DNA from: Caldinitratiruptor microaerophilus
GTDB taxonomy: Bacteria; Bacillota; Sulfobacillia; Symbiobacteriales; ZC4RG38
Direction: 5' to 3'
Length of the DNA: 64,000 bases
NCBI RefSeq assembly: GCF_025999835.1
Contig: NZ_AP025628.1
Span: 1,240,001-1,304,000, forward strand
Shown: in pieces, positions 5,598 to 58,260 of the stretch
How positions within the stretch are numbered: the first letter of the stretch is position 1
Layout: the number at the start of each line of letters is the position of its first letter
Program-made: the position numbers and the translations under genes
Notes under the pieces: model-generated
The model's database searches: none
What the model was told of the DNA's origin: nothing
Seen by the model: only the letters and a program-made list of their open reading frames with translations

Positions 5598-5889
5598 GAC
5601 AGGACTCACCCCATCCGAGCGGTGTGATCGGAACGCGACGTCGAACCGATTCAAGCTCATGGCAAGCAAGTTCCGTGCCCGGCCGGCCGCTCTCACCTGC
5701 ACCCGCGAGGGCAGGCTCGCGGGCGCTGCCACTGCATCCGGGCGGGAGGTGGGGGAAGCGTGGGATGCGCCGGCGCATCGGTGATGCACTTCGGCATCAA
5801 CTCCAACGCCCGGGCGGGTTGCCGGCCGCCGAGAGGATTTCCCCCGGTGAGGCCGAAAGAGGCCACAGCAACGAAGGAAGGTCGATGGG

Positions 5890-7095
5890 ATGCACAGCGA
5901 GACGTGGCAGCGCTTCTTCACCGCCGAGACCGTCCGGGCCCTGGCCTATCCCCCGCCCGGCATCTGGATGCAGCGGGTGCCGCCGGGGGCCGTGAACCTG
6001 GCGGCAGGCTACCCGTTCCCCGAGTCCGTCCCCGTGCAGGAGATGCAGGAGGCCTTCGCCCGGCTGGCCCTCGCCGAGGGGGACCGCCCCTTCCAGTACG
6101 CGGGTTCCGACGCGATGGCCGGCCTCGACCGTCTCCTCACCGACGGGCTCCGGGCGCGGGGGCTGTGGCGCCCCGGCGACGCCGTGCTGGTCACGGCCGG
6201 CGCCCTGCAGGCTCTCGACCTGCTCTGCCGGGTCATCCTGGACGGGCACGTGGCTGCCCTGGTGGAAGCCCCGACGTACATGGAGGCGCTCGAGGTCCTG
6301 CGCAACTACACGCCGCACCTGCGGGGAGTCCCCGTGGGGCCGCACGGCCTGGAGGTGGAAGCCCTGGGGCGGCTGCTGCACACGGCCGGCCCAGGGGAGC
6401 CGCGCCCCCGCCTTCTCTACACCGGGCCCACGTTCCAGAATCCGACCGGCACCACGCTCCCCGAAGCAGCCCGCCGGACCCTCCTGGACCTGGCAGAGCA
6501 GTTCGACTTCCTGATCGCCGAGGATGCGGCGTACGCCGAACTCTTCTTCTCGCCGCCGCCGCCGGCCCTGAAGCAGCTCGACACGGGTGGGCGCGTGATC
6601 CACATCGGGTCGCTGTCGAAGGTGATCGCCCCCGGCCTGCGGATCGGGTGGGCCGTGGGCCCTGCGCCGGTCATCGAGGCGATGGCCCTGTACAAGAAGG
6701 ACCTGGACCACCCGTTCAGCCGGGCCCTGGTGGGCGAGTACCTGCGGGGGACGGACCTCGAGGCGCGGCTCCAGCGCCTGCGGGCCGCCTACCGGGAGCG
6801 CGCCGCCCGACTGGTGCAGGCGCTGCGGGCGCACATGCCGGAAGGGGTCACGTGGACCGAGCCGGCGGGCGGCTACTTCGTGTGGCTCACCCTTCCGGAG
6901 CCGGTCCCGGAAGAGGACCTCCTCGCCGCCGCCCGGGCCGAGGGCGTGGCGTACGTGCCGGGGCGGCACTTCTACCTGCCCGGTGAGGCCCCCTCGCGCG
7001 CCCGGCTGCGGCTGTCGTTCAGCTACGCGCCGCCGGAGGCGCTCGACGAGGGAGTGCGCCGGCTCGGCGCCGCCCTGCGGCGGTTCCTCCGGTGA
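5890..7095 (+). CDS. Class I/II PLP-dependent aminotransferase (2-aminoadipate/LysN-like)
   Basis: 401 residues, fold-type I. Shows YAGSDAMAGL and NPTGTTLP motifs, an aspartate in IAEDAAYAELFF, and the PLP lysine in GSLSKVIAPGLRIGW (about residue 240). This resembles the MocR-related family of 2-aminoadipate/multi-substrate aminotransferases, but without the N-terminal GntR DNA-binding domain, so it is a stand-alone enzyme. A GGAAGG site precedes the ATG. It is divergent from the class III aminotransferase across a 292-base promoter region and convergent with the ureohydrolase gene, with a shared hairpin between them. Confidence 0.85.
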   Translation: MHSETWQRFFTAETVRALAYPPPGIWMQRVPPGAVNLAAGYPFPESVPVQEMQEAFARLALAEGDRPFQYAGSDAMAGLDRLLTDGLRARGLWRPGDAVLVTAGALQALDLLCRVILDGHVAALVEAPTYMEALEVLRNYTPHLRGVPVGPHGLEVEALGRLLHTAGPGEPRPRLLYTGPTFQNPTGTTLPEAARRTLLDLAEQFDFLIAEDAAYAELFFSPPPPALKQLDTGGRVIHIGSLSKVIAPGLRIGWAVGPAPVIEAMALYKKDLDHPFSRALVGEYLRGTDLEARLQRLRAAYRERAARLVQALRAHMPEGVTWTEPAGGYFVWLTLPEPVPEEDLLAAARAEGVAYVPGRHFYLPGEAPSRARLRLSFSYAPPEALDEGVRRLGAALRRFLR

Positions 7096-7115
7096 CCCCG
7101 GCGCCGGCGCCCCGG

Positions 7116-7154
7116 GTCCTGACGCCGGCTCCGCCGGCGGACCGGCGTCAGGAC
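7116..7154. terminator. Bidirectional terminator hairpin
   Basis: Perfect 13-bp arms GTCCTGACGCCGG (7116-7128) and CCGGCGTCAGGAC (7142-7154) with a 13-base loop. It lies between two convergent genes and its right arm overlaps the last codons of the ureohydrolase gene. No T-run on either side. Confidence 0.65.
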
Positions 7155-8113
7155 CGGCCCACCGCCAGCGCCGCGCGCCGCTGCAGAGCCACCAGCGAGA
7201 TCATCTCGTAGAGGATGTTCGCGGCCAGGTAGGCCGTGATCTCGCCGGGGTCGTAGGCGGGAAGCACCTCCACCACGTCGAACCCGACGAAGTTCAGTCC
7301 CTGGAGCCCCCGCACGAGCTGCAGGGCCTCCCGGGACGTGAACCCGCCCACCTCGGTGGTACCGGTGCCCGGCGCGTAGGCCGGATCGACGGCGTCGATG
7401 TCGAAGGTGAAGAACGCCTTGCGATCCCCCACCCGCCTCCGGATCCGCTCGATCACCGCCGGGACGCCGATGTCCTGCACCTCGTACATGGTGATGAGCT
7501 CGAATCCGAGCTCCCGGGTACCCACGTAATCCTCCGGGCCGTAGTTCGAGCCCCGGATGCCCACCTGGATCGAGTGGGCGACGTCCAGCAGGCCCTCCTC
7601 CACGGCCCGGCGGAACGGGGTGCCGTGGTTGTACTTGCGGCCGAAGTACTCGTCCAGCGTGTCCAGGTGGGCGTCGACATGCACGAGGGCCACCGGCCCG
7701 TGCACCTTCGCGCAGGCCCGCAGCTCGCCAAGCGTGACCGAGTGGTCGCCCCCCATCCCGAGGGGGATCACGCCGGCCGCGAAGAGCGGCGTGAACGTCT
7801 GGACGATGCGCTCGTAGGTATCCTCGATGTAGCCCGGCACGACCGGCACGTCGCCGTAGTCGACCCCCGAGAGGTACCGGAAGATCTCGATGTCCAGGGC
7901 GGGGTTCCAGGGGCGGAGCATGATCGACGAGCGACGGATCGCCTCGGGGCCGAACCGGGCTCCCGAGCGGTGGGTGGTCGCGTCGTCGAACGGGATCCCG
8001 ACCAGGGCGAAGTCGACGTCCTCCGTCGTGCGCACGTGGGGCAGGCGCATGAACGTGCGGACCCCGGAGAAGCGCGGGGACTCGAGCGAGTTGGCAGGCT
8101 GGTACTTGGGCAA
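7148..8113 (-). CDS. speB: Ureohydrolase (agmatinase / guanidinobutyrase type)
   Basis: 321 residues, cytoplasmic binuclear manganese hydrolase that releases urea from a guanidino compound. All family metal motifs are present: GGDHS (121-125), DAHLD (147-151) and DIDAVDPA (238-245). The family includes agmatinase, guanidinobutyrase, guanidinopropionase and guanidine hydrolase; sequence inspection alone does not separate them. It is the last gene of a five-gene operon, 30 bases after the ATP-binding gene of a polar amino-acid transporter, so the pair plausibly imports and hydrolyses an arginine-like or guanidino compound. The symbol speB is family-level only. Confidence 0.85.
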   Translation of the reverse strand: MPKYQPANSLESPRFSGVRTFMRLPHVRTTEDVDFALVGIPFDDATTHRSGARFGPEAIRRSSIMLRPWNPALDIEIFRYLSGVDYGDVPVVPGYIEDTYERIVQTFTPLFAAGVIPLGMGGDHSVTLGELRACAKVHGPVALVHVDAHLDTLDEYFGRKYNHGTPFRRAVEEGLLDVAHSIQVGIRGSNYGPEDYVGTRELGFELITMYEVQDIGVPAVIERIRRRVGDRKAFFTFDIDAVDPAYAPGTGTTEVGGFTSREALQLVRGLQGLNFVGFDVVEVLPAYDPGEITAYLAANILYEMISLVALQRRAALAVGRS

Positions 8114-8143
8114 GACAAGCCCTCCCGGATGCGGTGTCTGCGT

Positions 8144-8863
8144 TCAGAGGACCTTGCTCAGGAAGGCCCGCGTGCGCTCGTGAGCGGGCTCGGAGAAGAC
8201 CTGCCCGGGCGGGCCCTCCTCCACGATCCGGCCCTCGTCCATGAAGATCACCCGGTCCGCCACCTCCCGGGCGAAGCCCATCTCGTGGGTGACGACCAGC
8301 ATCGTCATGCCCTCCGCGGCCAGTTCCTGCATGACCTCCAGGACTTCCTTGATCATCTCGGGGTCCAGCGCCGAGGTCGGCTCGTCGAAGAGCATGGCCC
8401 GCGGGCGCATGGCCAGCGCCCGGGCGATGGCGACCCGCTGCTGCTGCCCCCCGGAGAGGTGGTTGGGGAAGGCCCGGGCCTTGTCGCGCAGGCCCACCTT
8501 GGCCAGGAGCTGAAGCGCCAGCTCCTCTGCCTCCGCGGGGGCCATCCCGCGGACCTTCACCGGCGCGAGCATGATGTTCTGCAGCACGTTCATGTGCGGG
8601 AACAGGTTGAAGCGCTGGAACACCATCCCGACCTCGCGCCGGACCGCCTGCAGCCCGGGGCCGGGTTCAACCCGCTTCCCGTCCACCCACACCTCGCCGG
8701 AGGTGGGCTGCTCGAGGAAGTTGATGCACCGGAGGAGTGTGCTCTTGCCGGAGCCGCTCGGGCCGATGACGCAGACGACCTCGCCCTGCCGCACGTGCAG
8801 GTTGATGCCGCGCAGGACCTCGAGCGAACCGAAGCGCTTGCCGAGGTCGACGGTCCTAATCAC
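8144..8863 (-). CDS. Polar amino acid ABC transporter ATP-binding protein (GlnQ type)
   Basis: 239 residues, normal for GlnQ/ArtP/HisP. Walker [10 protein letters not shown] lies at about 33-41, the [15 protein letters not shown] signature near 135-149, Walker [15 protein letters not shown] near 158-171, and the switch histidine in [12 protein letters not shown] start overlapping the permease stop by eight bases. Energises the adjacent permease and binding protein. Confidence 0.94.
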
Positions 8864-9524
8864 TGACCCGCCACCTCCGCTCGAGAGCCCGGGCGACCCG
8901 GGAGAGGGACAGGGTCATGACCAGGTAGATGACCGAGATGGTGGTCAGCATCTCGAAGGCCTTGAACGTGCGGGCGGTGATGAGCTGGGCCGCCCGGGTG
9001 AGCTCGACCACGGAGATGGTGGCCACCAGGGACGAGTTCTTGAGGAGGGACGTGAACTCGTTGACCAGCGGCGGCAGGATGCGCTTGAAGGCCTGCGGCA
9101 GGATGACGTAGCGCATCACGCTGAGCGGCGGCAGCCCGAGCGACAGCGCGGCCTCCGTCTGCCCCCGGTCGATCGACTGGATCCCCGCCCGGATGATCTC
9201 CGCGACGTAGGCGGCGGAGTTCAGCCCGAAGGCGACGACGCCGGCGACGAACTCGTTCATGTGGATCTGCAGGACCTGGGGAATCCCGTAGAACACCATG
9301 AACAGCTGTACGAGCAGGGGCGTGCCGCGGATGACCTCGATGTAAACCTCGGCCGCCGCGGCGATCCAGGTCACCCGGGACAGGCGGGCGAGCCCCAGGA
9401 CCGTGCCCAGCGCGATCCCGATCGCCACGGCGAGGACGGTGATCTCGATCGTCCGGACGGCCCCCTGGAGAAGGAAGGGCAGCGACGAGCGGATGATCCC
9501 GAAATCCATGTCTACTTGAACCAC
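8856..9524 (-). CDS. Polar amino acid ABC transporter permease
   Basis: 222 residues from a GTG at 9524 that overlaps the binding-protein gene by 13 bases; an ATG at 9509, two bases after that stop codon, would give 217 residues and is equally plausible. HisMQ-family permease with about five membrane helices. The EAA coupling loop [22 protein letters not shown] is at about 135-156. A single permease gene implies a homodimeric channel. Confidence 0.92.
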
Positions 9525-10387
9525 TTCTTCACGAGCGCATCCATGCGGCCGTCCTGCTTCATCTTGTCAAGCACCTGGTCGACGAACTCCCGCAGGTCGT
9601 CCGAGTCGGGCCGGAAGGCGATCCCGGTGTCGACGGGGTCGAGTTCGGCCACCATCTTCAGGCGCGGGTCCTGGGCCACGAACGCCTTGGCCACGACGCT
9701 GTGCAGGATCATCGAGTCGACCTGCTTCGTGGCCACCGCCATGGCGGCGTCGGTGTACAGCGGATAGCGCTTGACCTGGGCCCCCTCGACCTTGGAGGCG
9801 ATCTGGTCCTGGGCGCTGCCGAGCTGCACGGCGATCGTCTTGCCCTTCAGGTCGTCGAGCTTCGAGATCCCCTGCGTGTCCTTGTGGACCACGATCGCGT
9901 TGCCGCCGGACATGTAGGGCTTGGAGAAGTCGACGCTCTTCTTTCGCTCCTCGGTGATGGTGAGCCCGGCGATCATGAAGTCGAACTTCTTGGCCAGGAG
10001 GGCCGGGATGAGCCCGTCAAAGGTGATGTTCAGGACCTCCAGCTCGACCCCCAGCTCCTTGGCGATCTCCCGCGCCAGGTCGATGTCGAAGCCGACGATG
10101 TTGTTGTTCTGGTCGAGGGACTCGAAGGGCGGGTAGTCCGCCGAGGTGCCGATCACGAGCTTGCCCGCCTTCTTGATCGCCGCGATGTGCCCGCCCTCGG
10201 GTGCCTGAGGCGCTGCGCCGGCGGACGGCTGGGGCGCGGACGGGGCCTGCGCCGCGGGCTGGGACTGTGGCGATGACTGCGTGGCCGAGCTCTGGCCCGA
10301 TTGCGGTGCGGCCGGCTGACCGCCTCCACAGCCCGCCATGCTGAGGACGAGGCTCAGGATGACTCCTACCAGGGCCAGGCGCTTCAT
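9512..10387 (-). CDS. Polar amino acid ABC transporter substrate-binding lipoprotein
   Basis: 291 residues. Signal peptide with lipobox MAGC (cysteine about 20), then a Gln/Pro/Ala/Ser-rich linker to about residue 65, then an SBP family 3 domain: GKLVIGTSADYPPFES, then NNIVGFDIDLAREIAKELG, an AGLTITEERKKSVDFSKPY hinge segment and the C-terminal FRPDSDDLREFVDQVLDKM. Such receptors bind polar or basic amino acids such as Gln, Arg or His. Its start overlaps the upstream GntR gene by four bases (ATGA), so regulator and transporter are translationally coupled. Confidence 0.92.
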   Translation of the reverse strand: MKRLALVGVILSLVLSMAGCGGGQPAAPQSGQSSATQSSPQSQPAAQAPSAPQPSAGAAPQAPEGGHIAAIKKAGKLVIGTSADYPPFESLDQNNNIVGFDIDLAREIAKELGVELEVLNITFDGLIPALLAKKFDFMIAGLTITEERKKSVDFSKPYMSGGNAIVVHKDTQGISKLDDLKGKTIAVQLGSAQDQIASKVEGAQVKRYPLYTDAAMAVATKQVDSMILHSVVAKAFVAQDPRLKMVAELDPVDTGIAFRPDSDDLREFVDQVLDKMKQDGRMDALVKKWFK

Positions 10388-12483: not shown

Positions 12484-12720
12484 GGGACAGAAATCGACCC
12501 ATGTACCTGCAGGGGTACATGGGTCAAGTCTTGTCCCTGTTTGCCTCGTAATGCCGGAACGGTTGACGGAAGTACGGACTTACGTTGACGGCCACCGCAT
12601 TTCCGTAAACCTGGTAGCCACCCGCGAGGAAGCCGCGACGGTGCAAAGCGCTCTTGCGGCCCTGCCAGGACAATCTTTGTGCCATCACCGAGGCGCCGGC
12701 TGGGACAGAAGTTGTGCGCC
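12484..12720. repeat. Dispersed intergenic hairpin element, copy A
   Basis: About 235 bases matching a second copy at 58020-58250. The left end carries a stem-loop with 12-bp arms GACCCATGTACC (12496-12507) and GGTACATGGGTC (12514-12525). The right end carries a 23-base block (12664-12686) identical to 58200-58222. Between these, scattered matches (for example around the GCCGGA and TTACGT words) keep the two copies collinear with few gaps. Both copies lie between convergent genes. Candidate small mobile element remnant, structured RNA or bidirectional terminator unit. Confidence 0.7.
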
Positions 12721-24588: not shown

Positions 24589-25212
24589 CTACCTGTGCTT
24601 CAACCGGTAGATCGCCTCGTCATGCTCCATCCACTTCACGGCGAAATGGTCCAGCCGCTGGTCGATCTTGTCCAGGCGGTCCCTGATTTCATGCAGGTCT
24701 CCCCGGACGTCCTGGATATCCTGCTCGAGTTCCGCCGTGGCAACGCGCACTTCCGTCCTCAAAGTGTGAAGTTCCGCTTTCACCGCCTGAACCTCGGCAT
24801 TCGTGGCATCGAGTCTCTCCCGAATCGCCCTGACCTCGGCGTTCGTGGCATCGAGTCCCTGTCGAACCGCTTCGACCTCTGCGCCCGTAGCGTCCAGTCT
24901 CTCCCGAATCGCCCGAACCTCGGCGTTCGTGGCATCGAGTCCCAGTCGAACCGCTTCGACCTCTGCACTCGTGGCGTCCAGTCTCTCCCGAATCGCCCGA
25001 ACCTCGGCATTCGTCGCGTCCAGTCTCTCCCGAACCGCTTCGACCTCTGCGCTCGTGGCATCCAGTCTCTCTCGAACCACCTGGACCTCGGCCCTCGTCG
25101 TGTCGAGTCCCTCTCTGACCGCTCGGACTTCCGCACGGGTCCCCCTGAGCTCGGCGGTCAGCTCATCGAGCCGGCCCAGCACGACCGCGAGCGGGTCGTC
25201 GGTGCCCGTCAT
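24589..25212 (-). CDS. Coiled-coil protein of 14-residue tandem repeats
   Basis: 207 residues, no known enzyme domain. From about residue 27 to 180 the sequence is a register of 14-residue units of the form A-[IV]-R-E-R-L-D-A-T-N-A-E-V-[RE], eight close copies then three looser ones, equal to two heptads each; the DNA shows the matching 42-bp tandem repeat. Predicted as one long, rod-like, highly charged coiled coil. It ends in DHFAVKWMEHDEAIYRLKHR. No signal peptide or membrane helix. It lies 157 bases downstream of the SDR of the sigma-54 operon. Resembles DUF-type coiled-coil/tail-fibre-like proteins of Firmicutes, but function is unknown. Confidence 0.8.
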   Translation of the reverse strand: MTGTDDPLAVVLGRLDELTAELRGTRAEVRAVREGLDTTRAEVQVVRERLDATSAEVEAVRERLDATNAEVRAIRERLDATSAEVEAVRLGLDATNAEVRAIRERLDATGAEVEAVRQGLDATNAEVRAIRERLDATNAEVQAVKAELHTLRTEVRVATAELEQDIQDVRGDLHEIRDRLDKIDQRLDHFAVKWMEHDEAIYRLKHR

Positions 25213-25369: not shown

Positions 25370-26137
25370 TCAAAAATAATTGCTCGTGATCCCCCCGTCG
25401 ATCACGATCACCGCCCCGTTCGTCCACTCGGACTCGTCAGAGGCGAGGAACACGGCCATGTTGACGATGTCCTCCGGCCGGCCGAACCGCCCGGTCGGGT
25501 TGCGGCTGAGGCGGACGCGCCGGGCTTCCTCGTCGCGGAGGAGCCACTCGGTCAGGAGGGGCGTCTCAATCGGCCCGGGGCAGATCGCGTTGGCGCGCAC
25601 GCCGCGGGGTGCGAACTGGACGGCCAGGGACTTCGTAAGGGAGATCACCGCCCCCTTCGAGGCCGTGTAGGCGTCCTGGGGGACGCTGCAGCCGAGGAGG
25701 GCCACGAACGAGGCGATGTTGATGATCGATCCCCGGCCGTTCTTGAGCATCTCCGGGATCCCGTACTTGCAGCAGAAAAAGATGCCCTTCACGTTCACGG
25801 CCAAGGTCTTGTCCCACACCGCCTCCTCCGTGTCGATCACGGAGCGGTCCTGCTCCAGCATGACCCCGGCGTTGTTGTAGAGAACGTCCAGCCGTCCGAA
25901 CCGGTCGACCGTGGTCCGGATCGCCGCCGCCACCTCCGCCTCCTTCGTCACGTCGCAGCGGATCGGCAGGACCTCTCCGGGAGCCCCGTCGGCCAGGCGG
26001 GCGGTTTCCTCCGCGGCAGGGCCGTCGACGTCGACCGCCGCCACCCGGGCTCCCTCCCGGGCGAACCGGATCGCGGCGACACGCCCCATGCCGCTGCCGG
26101 CCCCGGTGATGAAGCACACCTTGCCTTGAAGTCGCAC
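25370..26137 (-). CDS. SDR-family dehydrogenase of the gamma-glutamyl-amine operon
   Basis: 255 residues from a GTG at 26137, eight bases after GAGGAGG; the frame continues upstream without homology. Classical SDR: TGAGSGMGRVAA near 11-22, YNNAG near 87, Ser in INIASFVALLG, and Tyr/Lys in DAYTASKGAVISL, with C-terminal NGAVIVIDGGITSNYF. Last enzyme gene after the glutamine synthetase homologue (94-base gap), so it may oxidise an alcohol or reduced intermediate in that pathway. It is not the FAD oxidase or aldehyde dehydrogenase expected in an E. coli-type Puu pathway. Confidence 0.85.
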   Translation of the reverse strand: MRLQGKVCFITGAGSGMGRVAAIRFAREGARVAAVDVDGPAAEETARLADGAPGEVLPIRCDVTKEAEVAAAIRTTVDRFGRLDVLYNNAGVMLEQDRSVIDTEEAVWDKTLAVNVKGIFFCCKYGIPEMLKNGRGSIINIASFVALLGCSVPQDAYTASKGAVISLTKSLAVQFAPRGVRANAICPGPIETPLLTEWLLRDEEARRVRLSRNPTGRFGRPEDIVNMAVFLASDESEWTNGAVIVIDGGITSNYF

Positions 26138-26231
26138 GGTGACAACCTCCTCGACCTCCGCGCGCGGACCCGGGCGGCCCAGGGCGAGCCGGTGCGCCGC
26201 CACGCGCCCGGCTCGCCCCGCCCCACACGGT

Positions 26232-27620
26232 CTACCCGCGCTCGTAGTACCGCTCCCGCTCCCAGCACGTCACGACGGCGTCGTACGCCTGCTGCTCGAC
26301 CCGGGCGGCGTTGAGGTAGTGCTCCACCACCTCGGTGCCGAAGATGGCCCGGGCCGCCTCGCTCCGCTCCAGGCGGTCGATGGCCTCGTAAAGCGAGCGC
26401 GGTACCCGCGGCACCTTGGCGGCCGCGTAGGCGTTGCCATGGAATTCGGGTCCGGGGTCGATCTTGTGCTCGATCCCGTACAGCCCGGCTCCGATCGCCG
26501 CCGCGAAGGCCAGGTAGGGGTTGATGTCCGCGCCGGGGATACGATCCTCGATCCGCAGCGAGGGCCCGTGCCCGACGATCCGGAACCCGCAGGTGCGGTT
26601 GTCGCGCGCCCAGGCGACGTTGACCGGCGCCCAGCTCGCCACGGCGTAGCGCTTGTACGAGTTCACGTTGGGGGCGAAGAAGACGGAGAGGTCCTGGGCA
26701 CAGGCCAGGAGGCCGCCGAGGAACCAGCGCATGATGTCGGACATGCCATGGGGGTCGCCGTCGGCGGGGAACAGGTTGCGGCTACCGGCGAGGTCCCAGA
26801 GCGACAGGTGCAGGTGACCGCTCGAGCCGGTCCAGGTGTGGTCCGGCTTGGCCATGAAGGTGATGGAGCATCCGCTGCGGAGTGCAATCTCCTTGGCCCC
26901 GTGCTTGAAGAGGATGGCCCGATCCGCGGACTCCAGGGCCTCGGCGAAGCGGATGTTCGCCTCGTGCTGGCCCACACCGGCCTCGCCCTTGGTGAACTCG
27001 ATCGGGATGCCGGCTGCCTGCATCCCAAGTCGGATCTGGCGGTGGATCGGCTCGCCCCGGGTTCCCTGGAGGATGTGGTAGTCCTCGTTGTACCATCCGT
27101 ACGGCTCCAGGCCGTGGTAGTTCTTGCGGCGGGCGGTGTCGTAGTCGTCCCGGATGAGGTAGTACTCGAGCTCGGCCGCCGCCATCACGGTGAAGCCCAT
27201 CGCCCGCGCCTTCTCGAGCTGCCGACGGAGCACCTGCCGCGGCGCCACCGGGACCGGCGTGCCGTCCTCGAACTCGGCGTCGGCCAGCACCAGCGCCGTC
27301 TTCTCCAGCCAAGGGATCCGGCGGAGGGTGGACCAGTCGGGCCGAGCCAGCCAGTCCCCGTACCCCTGCTCCCAGCTCATGAGGCGGAACCCGGGCGGGC
27401 AGGTCATCTCCATGTCGGTGCCGAGGAGGTAGTTGCAGAAGTGGATGCCGTCCTCCGTCACGTGCTCGAGGAAGAACTCCGCCGACACCCGTTTCCCCAT
27501 CAGCCGGCCCTGCATGTCCGCAAAGGCCGTGATGACGGTGTCGATCTCGCCGATCTCCACCAGCCGGCGTAGCTGCGCCAGGTCCAGCCGGCTGGCCTGC
27601 CGGCTCTGGCTGTCTGCCAT
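26232..27620 (-). CDS. Glutamine synthetase homologue, gamma-glutamylamine ligase (PuuA/GlnA3-like)
   Basis: 462 residues from the ATG at 27620 behind AGGAGG. Glutamine-synthetase fold: N-terminal beta-grasp TVITAFADMQGRLMGKRV, then the catalytic domain with the metal glutamates in AAAELEYYL and the GQHEANIRFAEA region, the HLHLSLWD histidine, and the NPYLAFAAAIGAG C-terminal motif. Typical ammonia-assimilating tyrosine adenylylation and ammonium-site motifs are weak, and it is clustered with a PuuD-like hydrolase and an APC permease, so it probably ligates glutamate to an amine or polyamine using ATP. Confidence 0.85.
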   Translation of the reverse strand: MADSQSRQASRLDLAQLRRLVEIGEIDTVITAFADMQGRLMGKRVSAEFFLEHVTEDGIHFCNYLLGTDMEMTCPPGFRLMSWEQGYGDWLARPDWSTLRRIPWLEKTALVLADAEFEDGTPVPVAPRQVLRRQLEKARAMGFTVMAAAELEYYLIRDDYDTARRKNYHGLEPYGWYNEDYHILQGTRGEPIHRQIRLGMQAAGIPIEFTKGEAGVGQHEANIRFAEALESADRAILFKHGAKEIALRSGCSITFMAKPDHTWTGSSGHLHLSLWDLAGSRNLFPADGDPHGMSDIMRWFLGGLLACAQDLSVFFAPNVNSYKRYAVASWAPVNVAWARDNRTCGFRIVGHGPSLRIEDRIPGADINPYLAFAAAIGAGLYGIEHKIDPGPEFHGNAYAAAKVPRVPRSLYEAIDRLERSEAARAIFGTEVVEHYLNAARVEQQAYDAVVTCWERERYYERG

Positions 27621-27659
27621 CCGGTAACCCCTCCTGTCGGTACGCACTCCGGACCGGGC

Positions 27660-29171
27660 TCAGGTGGCCACCCGGCCCGTCCGCCGCCACAGGCTCTCCT
27701 GCTCGAGCGCCCGTTCGATGCGCTCGAGCTCGTCCTCGGTGCCGAGCCGCCGAGGCCCCTCGAACCGGTGCCGCTCCACCGCGACCCAGTAGAGGACGAG
27801 GGCGGCCAGAACGACCGCGAACGTGTAGCCGGTTTTTTCGTTGGGCGGGGCCACGAAGAGCACGGAGATGAACAAGATCCAAAGGATGGCCAGGACGTTC
27901 ACCAGCGTGCTGAGGGGACCGAGGTTCCACGGGCCGTCGTTCCGGCTGGTCCAAGCGCCCCGTGCGCGGGCCCACAGCTTTAGGGCCATCGGGATGCCGT
28001 AGGAGACGTACAGCGCGATGGTGGAGATCGACGTGATGATGGGCAGGGCCTCGGCGTAGACGGCGAACAGGAAGGCGACCACGACGGCGAGCCACACCGC
28101 AGCCGCGGGGGTGCGGTACCGCCGGCTCACTGTCCCGAGCCAGCGGTGGCCGGGCAGCCCCCGGTCCCGAGCGAAGGCGAAGATCATCCGGGAGTTCGCC
28201 GTCACCGAGCTCAGGCCGCAGAACCACATGGCGATGGTGACGATCCACAGCATCGCCCGACCGAAGACCCCGCCAAGCGCCTGCTCGATGGCCGTGATGT
28301 ACGGATTCGTCGCCGCCGCCACGGCCTGCGGGTCCCGGATCGCCAGGGTCACGGCGGCGAGCATGACGTACCCGAAGAAGGCCGATACCGCCACGGCCAG
28401 GTAGACGCCCCAGGCCGCCCGGACGCGAGGATTGATGGTCTCCTCGGTGACGTGGGCCGAGGCGTCGTAACCGGTGTATGTCCACTGGGCCTGCAAGAGC
28501 CCCAGCAGGAACGCCCACCAGTACGGGTAGCTCGTGGTGGTGAAGCCGGTCTCGAAGAGGTAGCTCAGATCCCGTTTCGGGGCGAAGATCAGAAGGGCCC
28601 CCACGAGCAGCGCCACTCCGCCCATGTGCCACCAGGCGCTGAGGTCGTTCAGGCGGGCCACCACCCGGATGCCGTAGTGCTTCAGGATCCCGTGGCTCAG
28701 CAGCACCACGGCGTAGACGGCGAGAAAGTTGCCCCAGGTCTCCTCCAGTCCCAAGAGCGGGGTGAGGAACAGGGATACCGACCAGTCGATCCCGGCCGTG
28801 ATCGTGAACTGGCCCACCAGGTTGAACCAGGCCGCGAACCACCCCCACGCGCGGCCGCCCAGGACGTGGCTCCAGTGGTAGATGGCTCCCGAGGTGGGGA
28901 TCGCCGAGGCCAGCTCGGCCATCGCGGCGGCGACGAAGAGCGTGAAGAAGGTCACCAGCGGCCAACCGAGCCCGTTCACCGCCGGACCACCCATCGTGAA
29001 CCCGTAACCGTAGAGGCTCACGGCTCCGGTGAGGATCGAGATGATCGAGAAAGAGATCGCGAAGTTCGAGAAGCCGCCCATGTCCCGGAACAGTTCCTGG
29101 GCGTAACCGTAACGGTGAAGCTCCCGCCGGTCCCGCTCGAGCTGTTCTACCTCGCGCTGCACGGTGCTCAT
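27660..29171 (-). CDS. APC-superfamily amino acid/amine permease
   Basis: 503 residues with about 12 membrane helices. N-terminal cytoplasmic arginine/glutamate-rich segment, then GGFSNFAISFSIISILTGAVSLYGYGF, the AIPTSGAIYHWSH substrate-site loop, and YTGYDASAHVTEETINPRVRAAWG, all typical of the amino acid/choline-GABA (BAT1-like) transporter branch. A charged, probably helical tail (about residues 465-503) follows the last helix. Sits between the GS homologue (39 bases) and a tiny membrane protein (29 bases) in the sigma-54 operon. Likely imports the amine or amino acid handled by those enzymes. Confidence 0.9.
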   Translation of the reverse strand: MSTVQREVEQLERDRRELHRYGYAQELFRDMGGFSNFAISFSIISILTGAVSLYGYGFTMGGPAVNGLGWPLVTFFTLFVAAAMAELASAIPTSGAIYHWSHVLGGRAWGWFAAWFNLVGQFTITAGIDWSVSLFLTPLLGLEETWGNFLAVYAVVLLSHGILKHYGIRVVARLNDLSAWWHMGGVALLVGALLIFAPKRDLSYLFETGFTTTSYPYWWAFLLGLLQAQWTYTGYDASAHVTEETINPRVRAAWGVYLAVAVSAFFGYVMLAAVTLAIRDPQAVAAATNPYITAIEQALGGVFGRAMLWIVTIAMWFCGLSSVTANSRMIFAFARDRGLPGHRWLGTVSRRYRTPAAAVWLAVVVAFLFAVYAEALPIITSISTIALYVSYGIPMALKLWARARGAWTSRNDGPWNLGPLSTLVNVLAILWILFISVLFVAPPNEKTGYTFAVVLAALVLYWVAVERHRFEGPRRLGTEDELERIERALEQESLWRRTGRVAT

Positions 29172-29200: not shown

Positions 29201-29389
29201 CTACCGGGCAGAGACCGTGCTCGCCCCGTGCGGCTCCTCGCTGCGGGTCTCCTGCCCCAGTACCTTCAGGTCCATGAAGCTGACATGCTCCTCCTCGCGC
29301 CACGTCCGCACGCCGCGGTTCCCGAGCCATCCCAGAAACACCGCGTTCGCGGCAGCGAGGAGCACCACCAAGATGCCGATTGCGGTCAT
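29201..29389 (-). CDS. Small single-helix membrane protein, possible permease accessory subunit
   Basis: 62 residues from the ATG at 29389, behind a strong GGGAGGGG site. One N-terminal transmembrane helix TAIGILVVLLAAANAVFLGWLG, then a soluble tail of about 38 charged residues (VRTWREEEHVSF onwards). No family recognised. Its place, 37 bases after the hydrolase and 29 before the APC permease, with its own strong ribosome site, resembles small accessory proteins encoded beside symporters. Confidence 0.7.
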   Translation of the reverse strand: MTAIGILVVLLAAANAVFLGWLGNRGVRTWREEEHVSFMDLKVLGQETRSEEPHGASTVSAR

Positions 29390-29426: not shown

Positions 29427-30212
29427 CTACACCCGGTCGCCCGAGCGGACCCGCTCACGGTAGCGACCGGCCTCAACGACCAGCCAGCGGAACGGCACGA
29501 GCCCCTCTTCGTCGCCGGCCGCCACCATCTCGGGATGCCACTGGACGGCGAGGAACTCCGGCCTGTCCGGCATCACGAGGGCCTCGATCACGCCGTCCGG
29601 AGCCGTCCCGATGACCGCCAGGCCCCGCCCGAGGCGATCGATCGTCTGGTGGTGGAAGCTGTTGGTGAGAATCACCTCCTTCCCGTAGAGCTCGGCGAGG
29701 ACACTGCCCGGCGCCAGGGAAACCGGGTGCACACGGTACCAGCGCGGTCCCTGGCGCAAGTTGTGGGCGAGCGACGTGCCGGGCCGGTCGGAGAGATCCT
29801 GGTAGAGAGTGCCGCCGAGCAGCACGTTGACCAGCTGCATCCCCCGGCACACAGCCAGGAGCGGCAAACCTGCCTGCAGCGCGTGGTCCGCCAGCGCGAG
29901 TTCGAACCGGTCCCGCTCGGGGTCCACCCGCCCCAGGTGGGGCCCGGGCTCCTGGCCGTAGGTCCACGGGTCGATGTCCTCGCCGCCCGCCAGCACCAGG
30001 CCGTCCAGCCGGGTGACGTAGGCCCGGATGAGCGCCTCATCCCTCACCAGGGGGAGGGTGACGGGCAGCCCACCGGCCCGGCGCACGGCTTCCACGTAAT
30101 CCTCGCTCACCAGCGTGAACGACTGCCCCTCTCGCCCCCGCAGCGTCCCCCCCACCGGTTCCGTCGGACCGATGTGGTACCCCGTGAGGCCGATGAGCGG
30201 CGCCTGCTGCAT
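29427..30212 (-). CDS. puuD: Gamma-glutamyl-gamma-aminobutyrate hydrolase-like amidase (PuuD type)
   Basis: 261 residues, class I glutamine-amidotransferase-like peptidase C26. Catalytic triad visible: Cys122 in AVCRGMQLVNVLLGG, His226 and Glu228 in VQWHPEMV. The oxyanion region LVLAGGEDIDPWTYG (about 72-86) is typical of PuuD/YvdE. Hydrolyses a gamma-glutamyl amide to glutamate and the amine or amino acid. First gene of the operon; the GGGAGG site lies seven bases before the ATG and the sigma-54 promoter about 40 bases upstream. Role fits a gamma-glutamylated intermediate made by the GS homologue. Confidence 0.9.
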   Translation of the reverse strand: MQQAPLIGLTGYHIGPTEPVGGTLRGREGQSFTLVSEDYVEAVRRAGGLPVTLPLVRDEALIRAYVTRLDGLVLAGGEDIDPWTYGQEPGPHLGRVDPERDRFELALADHALQAGLPLLAVCRGMQLVNVLLGGTLYQDLSDRPGTSLAHNLRQGPRWYRVHPVSLAPGSVLAELYGKEVILTNSFHHQTIDRLGRGLAVIGTAPDGVIEALVMPDRPEFLAVQWHPEMVAAGDEEGLVPFRWLVVEAGRYRERVRSGDRV

Positions 30213-30249
30213 AACCCAACCTCCCCGCGTCGATCACCTGACACGCTTA

Positions 30250-30266
30250 CGCAAACTGCGTGCCAA
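30250..30266 (-). promoter_or_regulatory. Sigma-54 (RpoN) -24/-12 promoter
   Basis: On the minus strand TTGGCACG-CAGT-TTGC occupies 30266 to 30251, with exactly ten bases between the -24 GG and the -12 GC, an almost perfect match to the sigma-54 consensus TGGCACG-N4-TTGC. Expected transcript start is near 30240, about 28 bases before the puuD ATG. The sigma-54 activator gene is directly upstream. Confidence 0.9.
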
Positions 30267-30366
30267 GTGAGGAAGCGAAGGGACAAGACCCGTACCGACC
30301 GCCGGATCGACCCGGGGGCAAAGCGCGAAGCAGGGCGGCCGGGAGTTCTACCCGCGAGTCCGGCCG

Positions 30367-30423
30367 CCCCATTTCAGCCCATTTTCGGCACCACAAATGG
30401 GATGGTGTATCCCATTTGTGGTG
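30367..30423. promoter_or_regulatory. Activator binding-site cluster: palindrome plus half-sites
   Basis: A perfect inverted repeat with 14-bp arms CACCACAAATGGGA (30389-30402) and TCCCATTTGTGGTG (30410-30423) has a 7-base spacer; two further CCCATTT half-sites lie at 30368-30374 and 30378-30384. Its centre is about 140 bp upstream of the sigma-54 -24 box, a normal upstream-activating-sequence distance. It also abuts the end of the activator gene, so a terminator role is possible, but no T-run follows on the minus strand. Confidence 0.75.
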
Positions 30424-30435
30424 TCCTTTTCCCTT

Positions 30436-32448
30436 TCAGATCGGCGAATGGCGGCTCTCCTGTACGTACTCCGTTCCGGCAGGGGTGAGCCGCGTGCCGG
30501 ACCGCCCTCGCCGTGGCTCCACGAGGCCCGCCTCCGCCAGGGCCCGGAGACAGCGCCGGACCTCCGCCTCCCCCACCCGGAACCCGGCCGCCCGGGCCGC
30601 CCGCACCAGGCTCCGCCGGCCGGTGCCCTCGCCCGACTGCAGGGAATCGAGAAGAAAACGCGCGAGATCAGCACGGCGCACGCCGGCCCCCGTTCCGTTC
30701 GGGCGGCCCGCCTGCGCCCGGCGGACGGACGGCGGGAGGTCGGTGACCCGGAATTCCCCGTCGCACACCGTGGCCAGGTACTCCACGCAGCTCCGGAGTT
30801 CACGCACGTTCCCCGGCCAGTCGTGCGCCAGCAGGGCGCCCAGGACGTCCGGCGGCAGGGGCCGGGGGTCGCCGAGCTCGTCCAGGAAGCGCCGGACCAG
30901 GAGGGGGATGTCCTCCTTGCGCTCCCGGAGGGGCGGGATGTGCAGGGGGAGCACCGCCAGCCGGTAGTACAGGTCGGCCCGGAACCGGCCGGCGGCCACC
31001 GCCGCCTCCAGATCCTGGTTGGTGGCGCCGATGACGCGGACGTCGACCGGGCGCACCCGGGTGGCCCCCACCCGCATCACCTCGCGCTCCTGCAGGACCC
31101 GCAGGAGGCGGGCCTGCAGGGCGGGGGAGAGGTCGGCGATCTCGTCGAGGAAGATCGTGCCCCGGTGCGCCTGTTCGAACAGACCGGCCTTCCCGCCCCG
31201 GCGCGCACCGGTGAAGGCGCCCTCCTCGTATCCGAAGAGCTCGCTCTCCAGCAGGGATTCGGGGATCGCCGCGCAGTTGATGGCGACGAACGGGTACGGC
31301 GCCCGGGGCGAGGCATTGTGGATCGCCTGGGCGAACAGCTCCTTTCCCGTGCCGCTCTCGCCGATCAGGAGGATGGACGCCGCCCCGCCCACCAGGCGCA
31401 TCGCGCGGGCCACGGTGTCCCGGATGGCCTGGCTCTCCCCGACAATGTCGGTGAACGTATAGCGCGCGACGAACCCCCGCTCCCGCAGCTCCAGCCGCAG
31501 GCGGCGGTCCGCCTCCTCGAGGTCCTGGGCGTACCGGAGGGTGTAGACGACACCCCGGTCCGCCCCCCGGCTCGCCGCCGTGGCGACCACCTCCCGGCCG
31601 CCGACGCGAAGGACCTCCGGACCCCCGCCGGGGACGGGCCACGCCTGCGGCCCGACCCCCAGCGCGGCCCGGATCCGGCCGATGCTCTGGCCGACCACCT
31701 GCCACGCCTGCTGGCCGAGGATCTGCTCGGCGGTGCGGTTCACCAGCCGGACGATCCCCGCGCCGTCGACCGCCAGGATGCCCTCGTGCACCGCGTCCAG
31801 TACGGCCTCCAGGTCCTGCCGCAGCGCGGAAAACCACTGCAGGACCTGGCGGGTCCCCGGCCGCGTCATGACCTGCTGCTCGTAGACGGCCAGGCGCCGG
31901 TGCTCCTCGGGGCCGAAGCGGCCGAGCAGCGTCAGCACCTCCAGGATGGTGGCCGGGTCCAGGACCCGGTCGCCGAGGTCCAGGACCCGCTCCACCCAGG
32001 GCGGCACCAGGTGCGGTTCTCCGGGCGTGATGGCCAGCTGCACCCGGGGCACCTCGGACATGCCGGGGTAGACCGGCGTGAGCGCCAGGTGCACGGCGCC
32101 GAGTTCCCGCAGCAGCGCGACGGTGTCGACCGCCGTGTCCGGACCGTCGTTCACCACCAGGGCCGCCGTGCGCGCCGGGAGGGCCATGACCTCCTCCCAC
32201 GCCTGCCGGCGGAGCGTCCGGACGGCCGTGACCACCGCGGTCCCGGGCAGCAGCCAGTCGCCCAGGCGGCTCGTCATGAGGGGGGTCGAGGTGACGACGA
32301 GCGCACCCTCGGGCCGCTCGCCGAGCCCGTGCTCGAGCGATCGCCCCTCCACCGCCACCCGATCCCCGAAAAAGGCCTTGAACTGGCCCACGAGGATCCG
32401 GGCAGTCCGCTCCCGGTTCGCGACGACCAGGACTCGCTGCGCGCCCAT
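30436..32448 (-). CDS. Sigma-54-dependent transcriptional activator with winged-helix C-terminus
   Basis: 670 residues from the ATG at 32448; an in-frame GTG at 32457 is an alternative. Layout: N-terminal PrpR-like sensor (about 1-180), PAS domain (about 215-310; [17 protein letters not shown]), AAA+ domain (about 330-560) with Walker A GESGTGKE 363-370, the sigma-54 contact loop GAFTGA 410-415 and Walker B IFLDE near 432, then a winged helix (about 600-670; [22 protein letters not shown] split by wing residues) where most relatives have a Fis helix-turn-helix. Expected to drive the puuD-led operon from the sigma-54 promoter. The inducer is probably a small molecule sensed by the N-terminus or PAS domain. 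Confidence 0.92.
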
Positions 32449-32505
32449 CCACACCACCGCACCGTCGGTATGTTGCGGGCCCCCTGCGGGGGCCCTCCTT
32501 CGCGA

Positions 32506-32721
32506 TCACGCGTGCCGCCGGGGCGGCCACCACCCGAAGAGCTGCAGCATGTTCGCCCACATCCAGGCGTGCCGGGCCTCGTCCCGGCGCACGTTCTCAA
32601 AGTGCACGGCCAACCAGGGGTCGGGCGCCGTGCGGGCCAGGCGGCCGTAGAATTCGACCGCCTCCGCCTCGTCGAGGTATGCCTCCTCCAGGGCCCTGCG
32701 GAAGGTCTCCTGTCCGTCCAC
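32506..32721 (-). CDS. Small ferritin-like (two-helix) protein
   Basis: 71 residues from a GTG at 32721, about nine bases after GGGAGGAGG; GTG codons at 32727 and 32739 are alternatives. Two predicted helices: EEAYLDEAEAVEFYGRLAR and the one with VHFENVRRDEARHAWMWANML. The first Glu cluster and the E-x-x-H in DEARH match half of a rubrerythrin/ferritin di-iron four-helix bundle. A two-helix subunit would need to dimerise to bind iron, as encapsulin-associated ferritins do. No encapsulin is nearby. Lies between a thioesterase gene and the sigma-54 activator, all on one strand. Confidence 0.65.
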   Translation of the reverse strand: MDGQETFRRALEEAYLDEAEAVEFYGRLARTAPDPWLAVHFENVRRDEARHAWMWANMLQLFGWWPPRRHA

Positions 32722-32775
32722 GCTCACCCCTCCTCCCACAGGCCAGTTTACGGAAGAGGGGTGCTTCTGGCCCTG

Positions 32776-33177
32776 TCACGGGGCCTTCTTCTGCTCCACC
32801 CGGTTCAGGAAGCGGTCGAGCTGGACGATGAAGCGCTCGTGCCGGCCCTCGCCGATCTTCTCCGTCTCGTCGTGGGCCTCGACGCGGAAGACCAGGCGGC
32901 GCCCGTCGACCTCCTCCAGCACCGCCCGGGCCACCACCTCCATCCCGACGGGCGTGGCGGCCAGGTGGCGGACGTCGACGAGGATTCCGACCGTCGTCTC
33001 CCCCGGCGCCAGGTGCGGCTGCACGGCCGTGGCTGCCGCGCCCTCCATGAGCCCGATCATGTGGGGCGTGGAGAAGACCCGCACGCCGCCGCTGCCGATC
33101 GCCTCGGCGGTGTGTTCCGGCCCGACGCGCAGGCGCAGCTCGCCGGTGAGGCCGGGGGTGAGGGCAGGCGTCGTCAT
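32776..33177 (-). CDS. Hot-dog fold thioesterase (fluoroacetyl-CoA thioesterase FlK-like)
   Basis: 133 residues from the ATG at 33177; GAGGAGG abuts an earlier ATG at 33183. Matches the FlK-type family: an early VFSTPHMIGLMEGAAATAV with Ser/Thr, His, Glu and the C-terminal HDETEKIGEGRHERFIV. This family hydrolyses acyl-CoA thioesters or acts as a housekeeping hot-dog enzyme; most members do not act on fluoroacetyl-CoA. First of three same-strand genes before the sigma-54 activator (gaps of 54 and 57 bases), so co-transcription is possible. Confidence 0.8.
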   Translation of the reverse strand: MTTPALTPGLTGELRLRVGPEHTAEAIGSGGVRVFSTPHMIGLMEGAAATAVQPHLAPGETTVGILVDVRHLAATPVGMEVVARAVLEEVDGRRLVFRVEAHDETEKIGEGRHERFIVQLDRFLNRVEQKKAP

Positions 33178-33554
33178 CTTCATCCTCCTCGGTGGGATCA
33201 CTGCCGGTCGGACGGGTACCGTCCATCCGCACCGGAGCACCGATTTCGCCCCGCAGGGACGTGAACCCTGCCGGCCTCCGCCAGCCCCAGGACTAAGGAT
33301 CTGGGTGAGATGTGCACTTCAGGACCCGCTAGGATCGCCGTTGCGGGTCCTCAAGTGCACGACCGGGAACGCCGGCGGTGGGATGTGGTCCGGCGGTTTT
33401 CAGGGCAAACTTTGCCCCGACGGGAGTCGGTGTTGTGCAGAACCCTTCGCACGAGTGGCCGCACCGGACCCGCCCTGGACGCCCGTCGTGCCGGGGCGAT
33501 ACCTGGCCCCGCCCCGACGTTCGCCGCGCACACTACTGCCGGGGGTGGGCCGTC
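33178..33554. promoter_or_regulatory. Divergent promoter region with two inverted repeats
   Basis: 377 bases between the thioesterase (minus) and gnd (plus). It contains a long inverted repeat, GTGCACTTCAGGACCCGC (33312-33329) against GCGGGTCCTCAAGTGCAC (33343-33360), 18-bp arms with one mismatch around a 13-base loop, and a short operator-like palindrome GGGCAAA-c-TTTGCCC (33403-33417). Either could be a regulator site for one of the divergent operons. No gene seen. Confidence 0.5.
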
Positions 33555-39044: not shown

Positions 39045-40196
39045 ATGGACATCTTCCCCTTCCAGATCCCCACCCGGCTCACGATCGGCCCCGGCGCGGT
39101 GTCTTCCCTCGGCGAGCAGGTCGCCGCCGTGGCCCGGCGCGCCCTGATCGTGACCGACCCCGGCCTCGTGCGGGCGGGAGTCGTCGAGAAGGTGCAGGCG
39201 TCGCTGTCGGCGGCGGGCGTGAACTACGCCGTCTTCGACCAGGTCGAGGAGAACCCGAGCGATTCCACCTGCGAGAAGGCCGCCGAGCTCTGCCGGGCCG
39301 AGGGGTGTCAGGCGGTCGTGGGCGTCGGCGGCGGGAGCTCGATGGACACGGCGAAGGTCGTGGCCGCCCTGATGGGCAACCCGGGGAAGCGGCCGCAGGA
39401 CTTCGAGGGCCGGGAGCAGGTCGAGCGGGACGGGCTTCCCACCTTCATGGTCCCGACCACCGCCGGTACTGGCAGCGAGGTCACGTTCATCGCCGTGATC
39501 ACGGACACCCGCCGGACGTTCAAGATGACGCTGTACAGCCGGCGGCTCGCCCCGACGGCGGCTGTGCTCGACCCCCTCCTCACCCTCTCGAAGCCGCCGG
39601 GCCTCACCGCCGCCACCGGCATGGACGCCCTCACCCACGCCATCGAGTCCTACACGAACCGCTCCTACAACCCGATCTCGGACGCGCTGTCGGTGCGCGC
39701 GATCGAGATGATCGGCCGCCACCTGCGGACCGCCGTCGTGCAGGGCAGCGACGTGGAAGCCCGCCACGAGATGCTCCTGGCGAGCCTCATGGCGGGCATG
39801 GCCTTCAACTTCACCCGGCTGGGGCTCGTCCATGCCATGAGCCACCCCCTGGGGGCGCACTTCGGCATCGCCCACGGCGTGGCGAACGCGGTCCTGCTGC
39901 CGGCGATCATGGAGTTCAACCTGTTCGGCTGCATCGAGCGGACGGCGCACATCGCCCGCCTGCTCGGGGAAGACACGGCCGGCCTGAGCCCGGTCGCGGC
40001 GGCCCGCCGTGGCGTGGAGGCCGTGCGGGCGCTGGCCCGTGACGTAGGGATTCCGGAGCGCCTCGGACCCCTCGGCGTTACCGCCGATCGGATCCCGGCG
40101 ATGGCCGAGGACGCCATGAAGAGCGGGAACATCCCGGTCAACCCCCGGCAGGTGACCGCCAACGACGTGGCGCGGCTGTTCGAGAGCCTGCTCTGA
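39045..40196 (+). CDS. Iron-containing (group III) alcohol dehydrogenase
   Basis: 383 residues, normal length. NAD-binding VVGVGGGSSMDTAKVVA (about 91-107), VPTTAGTGSEVT near 141-151, and the iron site: Asp in ATGMDALTHAIE (about 190-200) and histidines in HAMSHPLGAHFGIAHG (about 263-278). Such enzymes reduce aldehydes or oxidise alcohols, including lactaldehyde and 1,3-propanediol. GAAAGGAGA precedes the ATG. Last gene of its unit, followed by a strong terminator. Confidence 0.92.
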   Translation: MDIFPFQIPTRLTIGPGAVSSLGEQVAAVARRALIVTDPGLVRAGVVEKVQASLSAAGVNYAVFDQVEENPSDSTCEKAAELCRAEGCQAVVGVGGGSSMDTAKVVAALMGNPGKRPQDFEGREQVERDGLPTFMVPTTAGTGSEVTFIAVITDTRRTFKMTLYSRRLAPTAAVLDPLLTLSKPPGLTAATGMDALTHAIESYTNRSYNPISDALSVRAIEMIGRHLRTAVVQGSDVEARHEMLLASLMAGMAFNFTRLGLVHAMSHPLGAHFGIAHGVANAVLLPAIMEFNLFGCIERTAHIARLLGEDTAGLSPVAAARRGVEAVRALARDVGIPERLGPLGVTADRIPAMAEDAMKSGNIPVNPRQVTANDVARLFESLL

Positions 40197-40203
40197 GGAG
40201 GGT

Positions 40204-40247
40204 ACTGCGCCCTGGGCGGTCGCCCGCGTGACCGCCCAGGGCGCAGT
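40204..40247 (+). terminator. Strong terminator hairpin
   Basis: Perfect 18-bp arms, ACTGCGCCCTGGGCGGTC (40204-40221) and its complement (40230-40247), around an 8-base loop, then GTGTTGTGTC. It begins eight bases after the iron-ADH stop codon. The strongest terminator-like structure in the window. Confidence 0.88.
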
Positions 40248-43115: not shown

Positions 43116-43150
43116 GGCGGAGGCGGGGCCCGGCCGGCCCCGCCTCCGCC
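43116..43150 (+). terminator. Stem-loop between binding protein and LivH genes
   Basis: Perfect 15-bp arms, GGCGGAGGCGGGGCC (43116-43130) and GGCCCCGCCTCCGCC (43136-43150), around CGGCC, then TCTCCG. Partial terminator or 3' stabiliser, at the same place as the hairpins at 2754 and 17155. Confidence 0.65.
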
Positions 43151-58019: not shown

Positions 58020-58260
58020 AGATAGGGGTTGACCCACGTACCCCGAGGGGTACGTGGGTCAAGAAACTTCCCTGTTCGCCCCTCTGCCGGATCCGGGGTT
58101 TACGGAACCTTATAGTTACGTCCTGTTCCGGCCCATTACGGTAAACCCGCCAGCTCAAGCTCAAGAGGTCGCGACCATCGAAAGCACTCTTGCGCGCACG
58201 CCAGGACAATCTTTGTGCCATCCGCGGATACGGCGCCGGGACAGAACCTGTGCACGCCCG
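58020..58260. repeat. Dispersed intergenic hairpin element, copy B
   Basis: Second copy of the element at 12484-12720, same orientation. Perfect stem-loop with 16-bp arms TTGACCCACGTACCCC (58029-58044) and its complement (58047-58062), loop GA. The pair 58037/58054 is C-G where copy A has T-A (12502/12519): a compensatory change keeping the stem. The 23-base block (58200-58222) is identical to copy A. It lies between convergent genes and probably ends transcription of the sugar-acid operon. Confidence 0.7.

Follow-up and report, generated by a model that had tools for sequence, protein, structure and literature searches.

What switches on the probable gamma-glutamyl-amine operon that begins 223 bp behind the gene of a sigma-54 activator? 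We addressed this question in a 64-kb window, by which we mean the whole stretch of DNA that was analysed. The five operon genes are co-directional with the activator gene and are separated by short gaps, and the answer was sought in the interval at 30213-30435. As far as the DNA sequence allows a judgement, and with a probability of roughly 0.87, this interval is predicted to hold an enhancer and the sigma-54 promoter of the operon, which would be switched by the adjacent winged-helix activator. The features are as follows.

25370-26203, minus strand: short-chain dehydrogenase (SDR; PF13561, E 1e-68)
26232-27647, minus strand: glutamine-synthetase-like (GS-like) ligase, probably a gamma-glutamyl-amine synthetase (PF00120, E 8e-99)
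27660-29171, minus strand: APC-superfamily amino acid/amine permease (PF13520, E 1e-53)
29201-29389, minus strand: small membrane-like protein; translation from an internal ATG gives about 62 aa (91 aa as a mechanical ORF)
29427-30212, minus strand: PuuD-like gamma-glutamyl hydrolase of the peptidase C26 family, with its gene leading the operon (PF07722, E 3e-66)
30251-30266, minus strand: sigma-54 -24/-12 promoter, TTGGCACGCAGTTTGC, with the top -24/-12 score in the window and a position kept at homologous loci
30368-30374, no strand: extra CCCATTT half-site, ten bases from the copy at 30378
30378-30384, no strand: extra CCCATTT half-site
30389-30423, no strand: inverted repeat with 15-bp arms and two AAATGGGAT half-sites, the probable activator-binding site (enhancer); half-site enriched at homologous loci
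30436-32457, minus strand: sigma-54 activator (bEBP), about 670 aa, with GAFTGA and a winged helix (PF00158, E 2.2e-68; PAS, E 9e-8)

The promoter and the repeats upstream of it

On the minus strand, 30266-30251 reads TTGGCACG-N4-TTGC, in exact agreement with a preliminary description of this DNA. This -24/-12 element carries the GG and GC dinucleotides at the fixed spacing of YTGGCACGN4TTGCW and is near-consensus; no other site in the window scores as high, and a first-order Markov model predicts about 0.15 such scores per 64 kb. From the usual spacing of -24/-12 promoters, the operon transcript is expected to start near 30240. The runner-up in the window was a -24/-12-like site, CGGGCACGGAACTTGCTT, at 5680 (minus strand).

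Our statements on the whole genome rest on pattern searches and family searches. The genome encodes one sigma-54 factor, RpoN (PF04552, E 1.4e-61), and about 14 full sigma-54 activators. The strict pattern TGGCACN5TTGC was matched 14 times, compared with four times for a reversed control pattern. When the activator and pattern lists were compared, eight of the 14 matches had a full activator gene no more than about 2.1 kb away.

Upstream of the promoter, the arms of the inverted repeat (30389-30403 and 30409-30423) are 100% complementary and enclose a 5-nt loop, and the centre of the repeat is 142 bp from the -24 GG. The palindrome that had been reported about 140 bp upstream is thus present, but its arms are 15 bp long and not 14; the additional CCCATTT half-sites, at 30368 and 30378, were recovered as described. 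The window has four AAATGGG/CCCATTT heptamers, and a single 50-bp stretch (30368-30417) between the activator gene and the promoter contains them all. Their total is ordinary (four against 2.2 expected), and it is the clustering alone that is unusual. In the 3.6-Mb genome, a pattern search for AAATGGGAT-N3-20-TCCCATTT returned a single occurrence, which is this repeat. Together with the direct copies, it very probably constitutes the enhancer of the activator. Each part alone had been considered a possible product of chance, and it is the promoter score, the clustering of the heptamers and the independent conservation at homologous loci that lift the parts beyond this.

The activator

The start codon of the activator gene is uncertain (32457, 32454 or 32448). 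The protein consists of a bilobed alpha/beta N-terminal domain, a PAS domain, an AAA+ domain with GAFTGA and a winged helix. Taken in isolation, its C-terminus matches PF08461 (HTH_12) with an E value of 1.2e-4, and residues 594-668 are arranged in the AlphaFold model as helix-helix-helix-strand-strand-helix. HTH_12 was also matched in 11 of 35 activator homologues, and Arg613 in the winged-helix domain is invariant across the activator alignment. The Fis-type HTH (PF02954) was found neither in the activator of the window nor among the families of the 35 homologues. The earlier view of this gene as a sigma-54 activator with GAFTGA and a winged-helix C-terminus therefore agrees with PF00158, HTH_12 and the model. 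The activator differs in this respect from the other activators of the genome, which, where their C-termini were read, have Fis-type helical ends as recognised by eye.

The N-terminal domain (31837-32454, minus strand) matched no Pfam family. Its bilobed alpha/beta fold was modelled with confidence (pLDDT 93.5), and a search of the model against the PDB gave no Foldseek match with E < 0.001 and a best VIA-align Z of 7.6, which is within the background. Many of the structures returned had bilobed periplasmic-binding-like or receiver-like folds. Designed TIM barrels, which came up in a profile search against solved structures, were set aside as relatives because the matches apparently arose from repetitive sequence, and maleate isomerase was set aside as a weak match (E 0.18). 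A gene of the FlK-type (fluoroacetyl-CoA-specific) thioesterase family (32776-33240, minus) immediately precedes the activator gene on the same strand.

Conservation at homologous loci

The activator has full or near-full-length homologues in Brevibacillus, Clostridia, Tissierellia and others. At most of them, a -24/-12 site lies 70-262 bp past the activator stop codon in the same direction, and an operon comes next. On the evidence of these loci, the layout of activator, sigma-54 promoter and operon is genuine and has been retained by distantly related Bacillota.

For 22 homologues, the window excluded, word counts in the gaps were compared with those in dinucleotide shuffles. The top 5-mer was AATGG/CCATT (31 against 11.8 expected, z 5.8, with a family-wise 95% limit of 4.3) and the top 6-mer was AATGGG/CCCATT (17 against 3.4 expected, z 7.3, with a limit of 6.1). 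Both stayed on top when each gap was stripped of its strongest hairpin, and likewise without the near relatives. Because the half-site of the window had no part in finding these words, their enrichment is an independent test of the proposed enhancer, and the expectation that the half-site is kept upstream of homologous operons was borne out. At the loci of other activators, in the sequence upstream of sigma-54-like sites, AATGG comes only 478th and TGTTTC/GAAACA leads, as is expected of Fis-type sites, many Fis-type bEBPs using TGT-N-ACA. The half-sites of the homologues drift between AATGGG, AATGGTT and ATTGGT, so the word statistics pool sites that are related and not identical. In C. difficile, AATAGG/CCCATT occurs at one site and there is little or nothing at others. 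As a separate candidate, GGGATA was the sole 6-mer shared by four GS-operon gaps; it was dropped because 6.9% of shuffles do equally well.

In the activator tree, the window groups with L134, L135, L024 and L025 (support 98/97), including two Brevibacillus proteins, and of the five activators in this clade, that of the window among them, four have a GS-like operon beside them. In Brevibacillus fluminis and B. reuszeri, the activator is followed by a sigma-54 site and genes for an M20 hydrolase, an SDR, a GS-like ligase (44-46% identity), an aldehyde dehydrogenase and an APC permease, where the names of the M20 hydrolase, the aldehyde dehydrogenase and the permease were assigned to the translations by eye. 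The L134 locus comprises the activator, a sigma-54 site, an M20 hydrolase, a GS-like ligase, an APC permease, an amidohydrolase and an aminotransferase, also by eye, with the ligase backed by similarity. L135, of the same clade, has no operon and no sigma-54 site after the activator. Outside the clade, a GS-like neighbour was found for one of 35 tree proteins. The difference in GS-like linkage between the clade and the rest has a p value of about 3e-4 by our own arithmetic, in a comparison where some loci are short. The exception is L050, where the GS-like gene and the homologous activator (6151-7503 and 7739-9733) are divergent and a weak -24/-12-like site lies between them.

The operon and its published relatives

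The nearest solved relatives of the PuuD-like hydrolase are Lin1909 and PuuD. The family match to PF07722 is accompanied by 112.7 bits for the PuuD equivalog, whose cut-off is 266. The small membrane-like ORF matched nothing in Pfam or NCBIfam. For the GS-like ligase, the matches to TIGR03105 and GGputSyn are below cut-off (194.9 bits for GGputSyn against 650), so it is not a PuuA-type ligase at the equivalog level. From what is known of these families, the substrate would be an amine or amino alcohol that becomes gamma-glutamylated. A 207-aa ORF of short repeats (LDATNAEVRAIRER), probably a coiled coil, adjoins the end of the operon (24589-25212, minus).

The E. coli Puu pathway comprises PuuA, PuuD, PuuP and the PuuR repressor, and the Ipu pathway serves isopropylamine and alaninol. 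The kinds of enzymes are those of the window, namely a gamma-glutamyl ligase, a permease, a dehydrogenase and a C26 hydrolase. However, the ligase of the window is only distantly related to PuuA, and the control of these pathways is by PuuR or other factors and not by a linked sigma-54 activator. Fis-type bEBPs such as NtrC, NifA, FhlA and PrdR share with the window the AAA+ domain with GAFTGA, the sigma-54 promoter and the upstream sites, but they carry a Fis-type HTH, whereas the activator of the window has a winged helix and AATGGG half-sites.

The preliminary description knew of no such gene set under sigma-54 control, and this holds only in part. In the sections of Nie et al. (2019) that we draw on, the sigma-54 regulons of Clostridiales include GamR with puuDT, GasR with puuXP and XcyR with malY-pepT (PMC6615313). 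A transcript map of C. difficile assigns a -24/-12 promoter and the GamR-type activator CD1186 to CD1187-CD1189, which encode a gamma-glutamyl-GABA hydrolase and a permease; for CD0166-CD0165, listed with the GamR-type CD0167, the fold change on mutation of sigL was 0.17 (PMC7438776). This kind of system is therefore already known. Like the window, GamR/puuDT has an activator of the winged-helix family and a -24/-12 promoter, followed by a PuuD-type hydrolase and an amino acid permease, and the layout in the C. difficile genome is activator, TTGGCATGTATATTGC, small ORF, PuuD and permease. In contrast to the window, the parts of these reports that we cite list no GS-like ligase or SDR, and the GS-like component appears to be absent from their tables. 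The C. difficile activator (L154) shares 35% identity and lies outside the clade of the window, together with L155, and its half-site has drifted to AATAGG/CCCATT. XcyR/malY-pepT, as far as the cited sections of PMC6615313 describe it, apparently has the same activator family and layout at L037, L038 and L040 of Lachnospiraceae/Oscillospiraceae, with repeated AATGG-type half-sites, but its targets are an aminotransferase and a peptidase and it forms a separate clade.

Alternative explanations

The promoter could be real and the enhancer elsewhere, if the inverted repeat were merely a 3'-end hairpin that terminates or stabilises the activator transcript. The repeat begins 13 bp past the activator stop codon, and the 90 nt around it fold strongly (-37.9 kcal/mol). 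Two perfect GC-rich hairpins with 15- to 18-bp arms and no T-run, at 40204-40247 and 43116-43150, start 8 nt past the stop codons of the ORFs ending at 40196 and 43108. Hairpins of this type may be how transcripts usually end in this genome, which makes such a role possible for the repeat as well, and T-runs come after the repeat in some of the homologues. However, the repeat of the window has no T-run behind it when read as the activator gene is transcribed, and the T-rich tail is on the other strand only, unlike an intrinsic terminator. Moreover, two direct heptamer copies lie outside the hairpin, the enriched words do not depend on the strongest hairpins of the homologous gaps, and L137 has three direct CCCATTT-type copies with no comparable palindrome. 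We consider it unlikely that the repeat is a hairpin only, and it may double as the enhancer and the 3' end of the activator transcript.

The repeat might also be bound by a different regulator, such as a repressor of the operon, because palindromes with 15-bp arms are typical of dimeric repressor sites too. This seems very improbable, since the enrichment of the half-site accompanies the homologues of this activator and is absent where other activators stand. The site is also unique in the genome and lies within the 100-250 bp given as the normal enhancer distance in the cited part of PMC6615313. It is similarly hard to believe that the -24/-12 match is fortuitous, with transcription of the operon starting at a housekeeping promoter or continuing into it from the activator gene. 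The consensus is short, and read-through is possible because the activator and operon genes are co-directional. However, no sigma-70-type promoter was found within 29800-32800, the expected number of such -24/-12 sites is far below one in 64 kb, and the position of the promoter is kept at homologous operons. Enhancer-dependent control of the operon, as proposed in the preliminary description, is instead supported by rpoN, GAFTGA, the promoter score, the unique palindrome, the conservation of half-site and gene order, and the GS-like operons beside the closest activators.

Proposed control of the operon

From the parts, their order and spacing, their rarity, their conservation and the operon content specific to the clade, we infer the following course of events. 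The activator would sense a small molecule, the inducer, through its N-terminal domain, its PAS domain or both. It would bind the AAATGGG half-sites that lie about 104-142 bp upstream of the -24 element, in the inverted repeat and as two direct copies, and its GAFTGA AAA+ domain would then open the sigma-54 RNA polymerase at 30266-30251. The PuuD-like hydrolase, the small membrane protein, the permease, the gamma-glutamyl ligase and the dehydrogenase would be expressed, and the operon would probably import an amine or amino alcohol, gamma-glutamylate it, oxidise it and release the product.

A more general proposal is tentative, and we would sooner expect it to fail than to hold. Winged-helix activators may form a distinct group with an AATGGG-type enhancer code just past the activator stop codon, in which one clade controls gamma-glutamyl-ligase operons and the repeat may double as a 3'-end hairpin. 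If this were true, ending the message of the regulator and enhancing its target operon would share one DNA element in some members. Independently of this proposal, the half-site offers a specific and cheaply testable candidate binding code for a group of sigma-54 activators that lack the usual Fis-type domain and adjoin operons for amino acids, peptides and amines throughout the Bacillota. To the published systems, the present locus adds an operon containing a ligase, a clade and a shared half-site, the last of these unless it is identical to the published GamR/XcyR motif. Gamma-glutamyl-ligase operons would join the sigma-54 repertoire, and nothing is overturned.

Elsewhere in the window there are two similar perfect hairpins (GACCCAYGTACC...GGTACRTGGGTC), at 12496-12525 and 58029-58062, the former flanked by GGGACA/TGTCCC-like sequence. 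They are perhaps copies of a small dispersed repeat.
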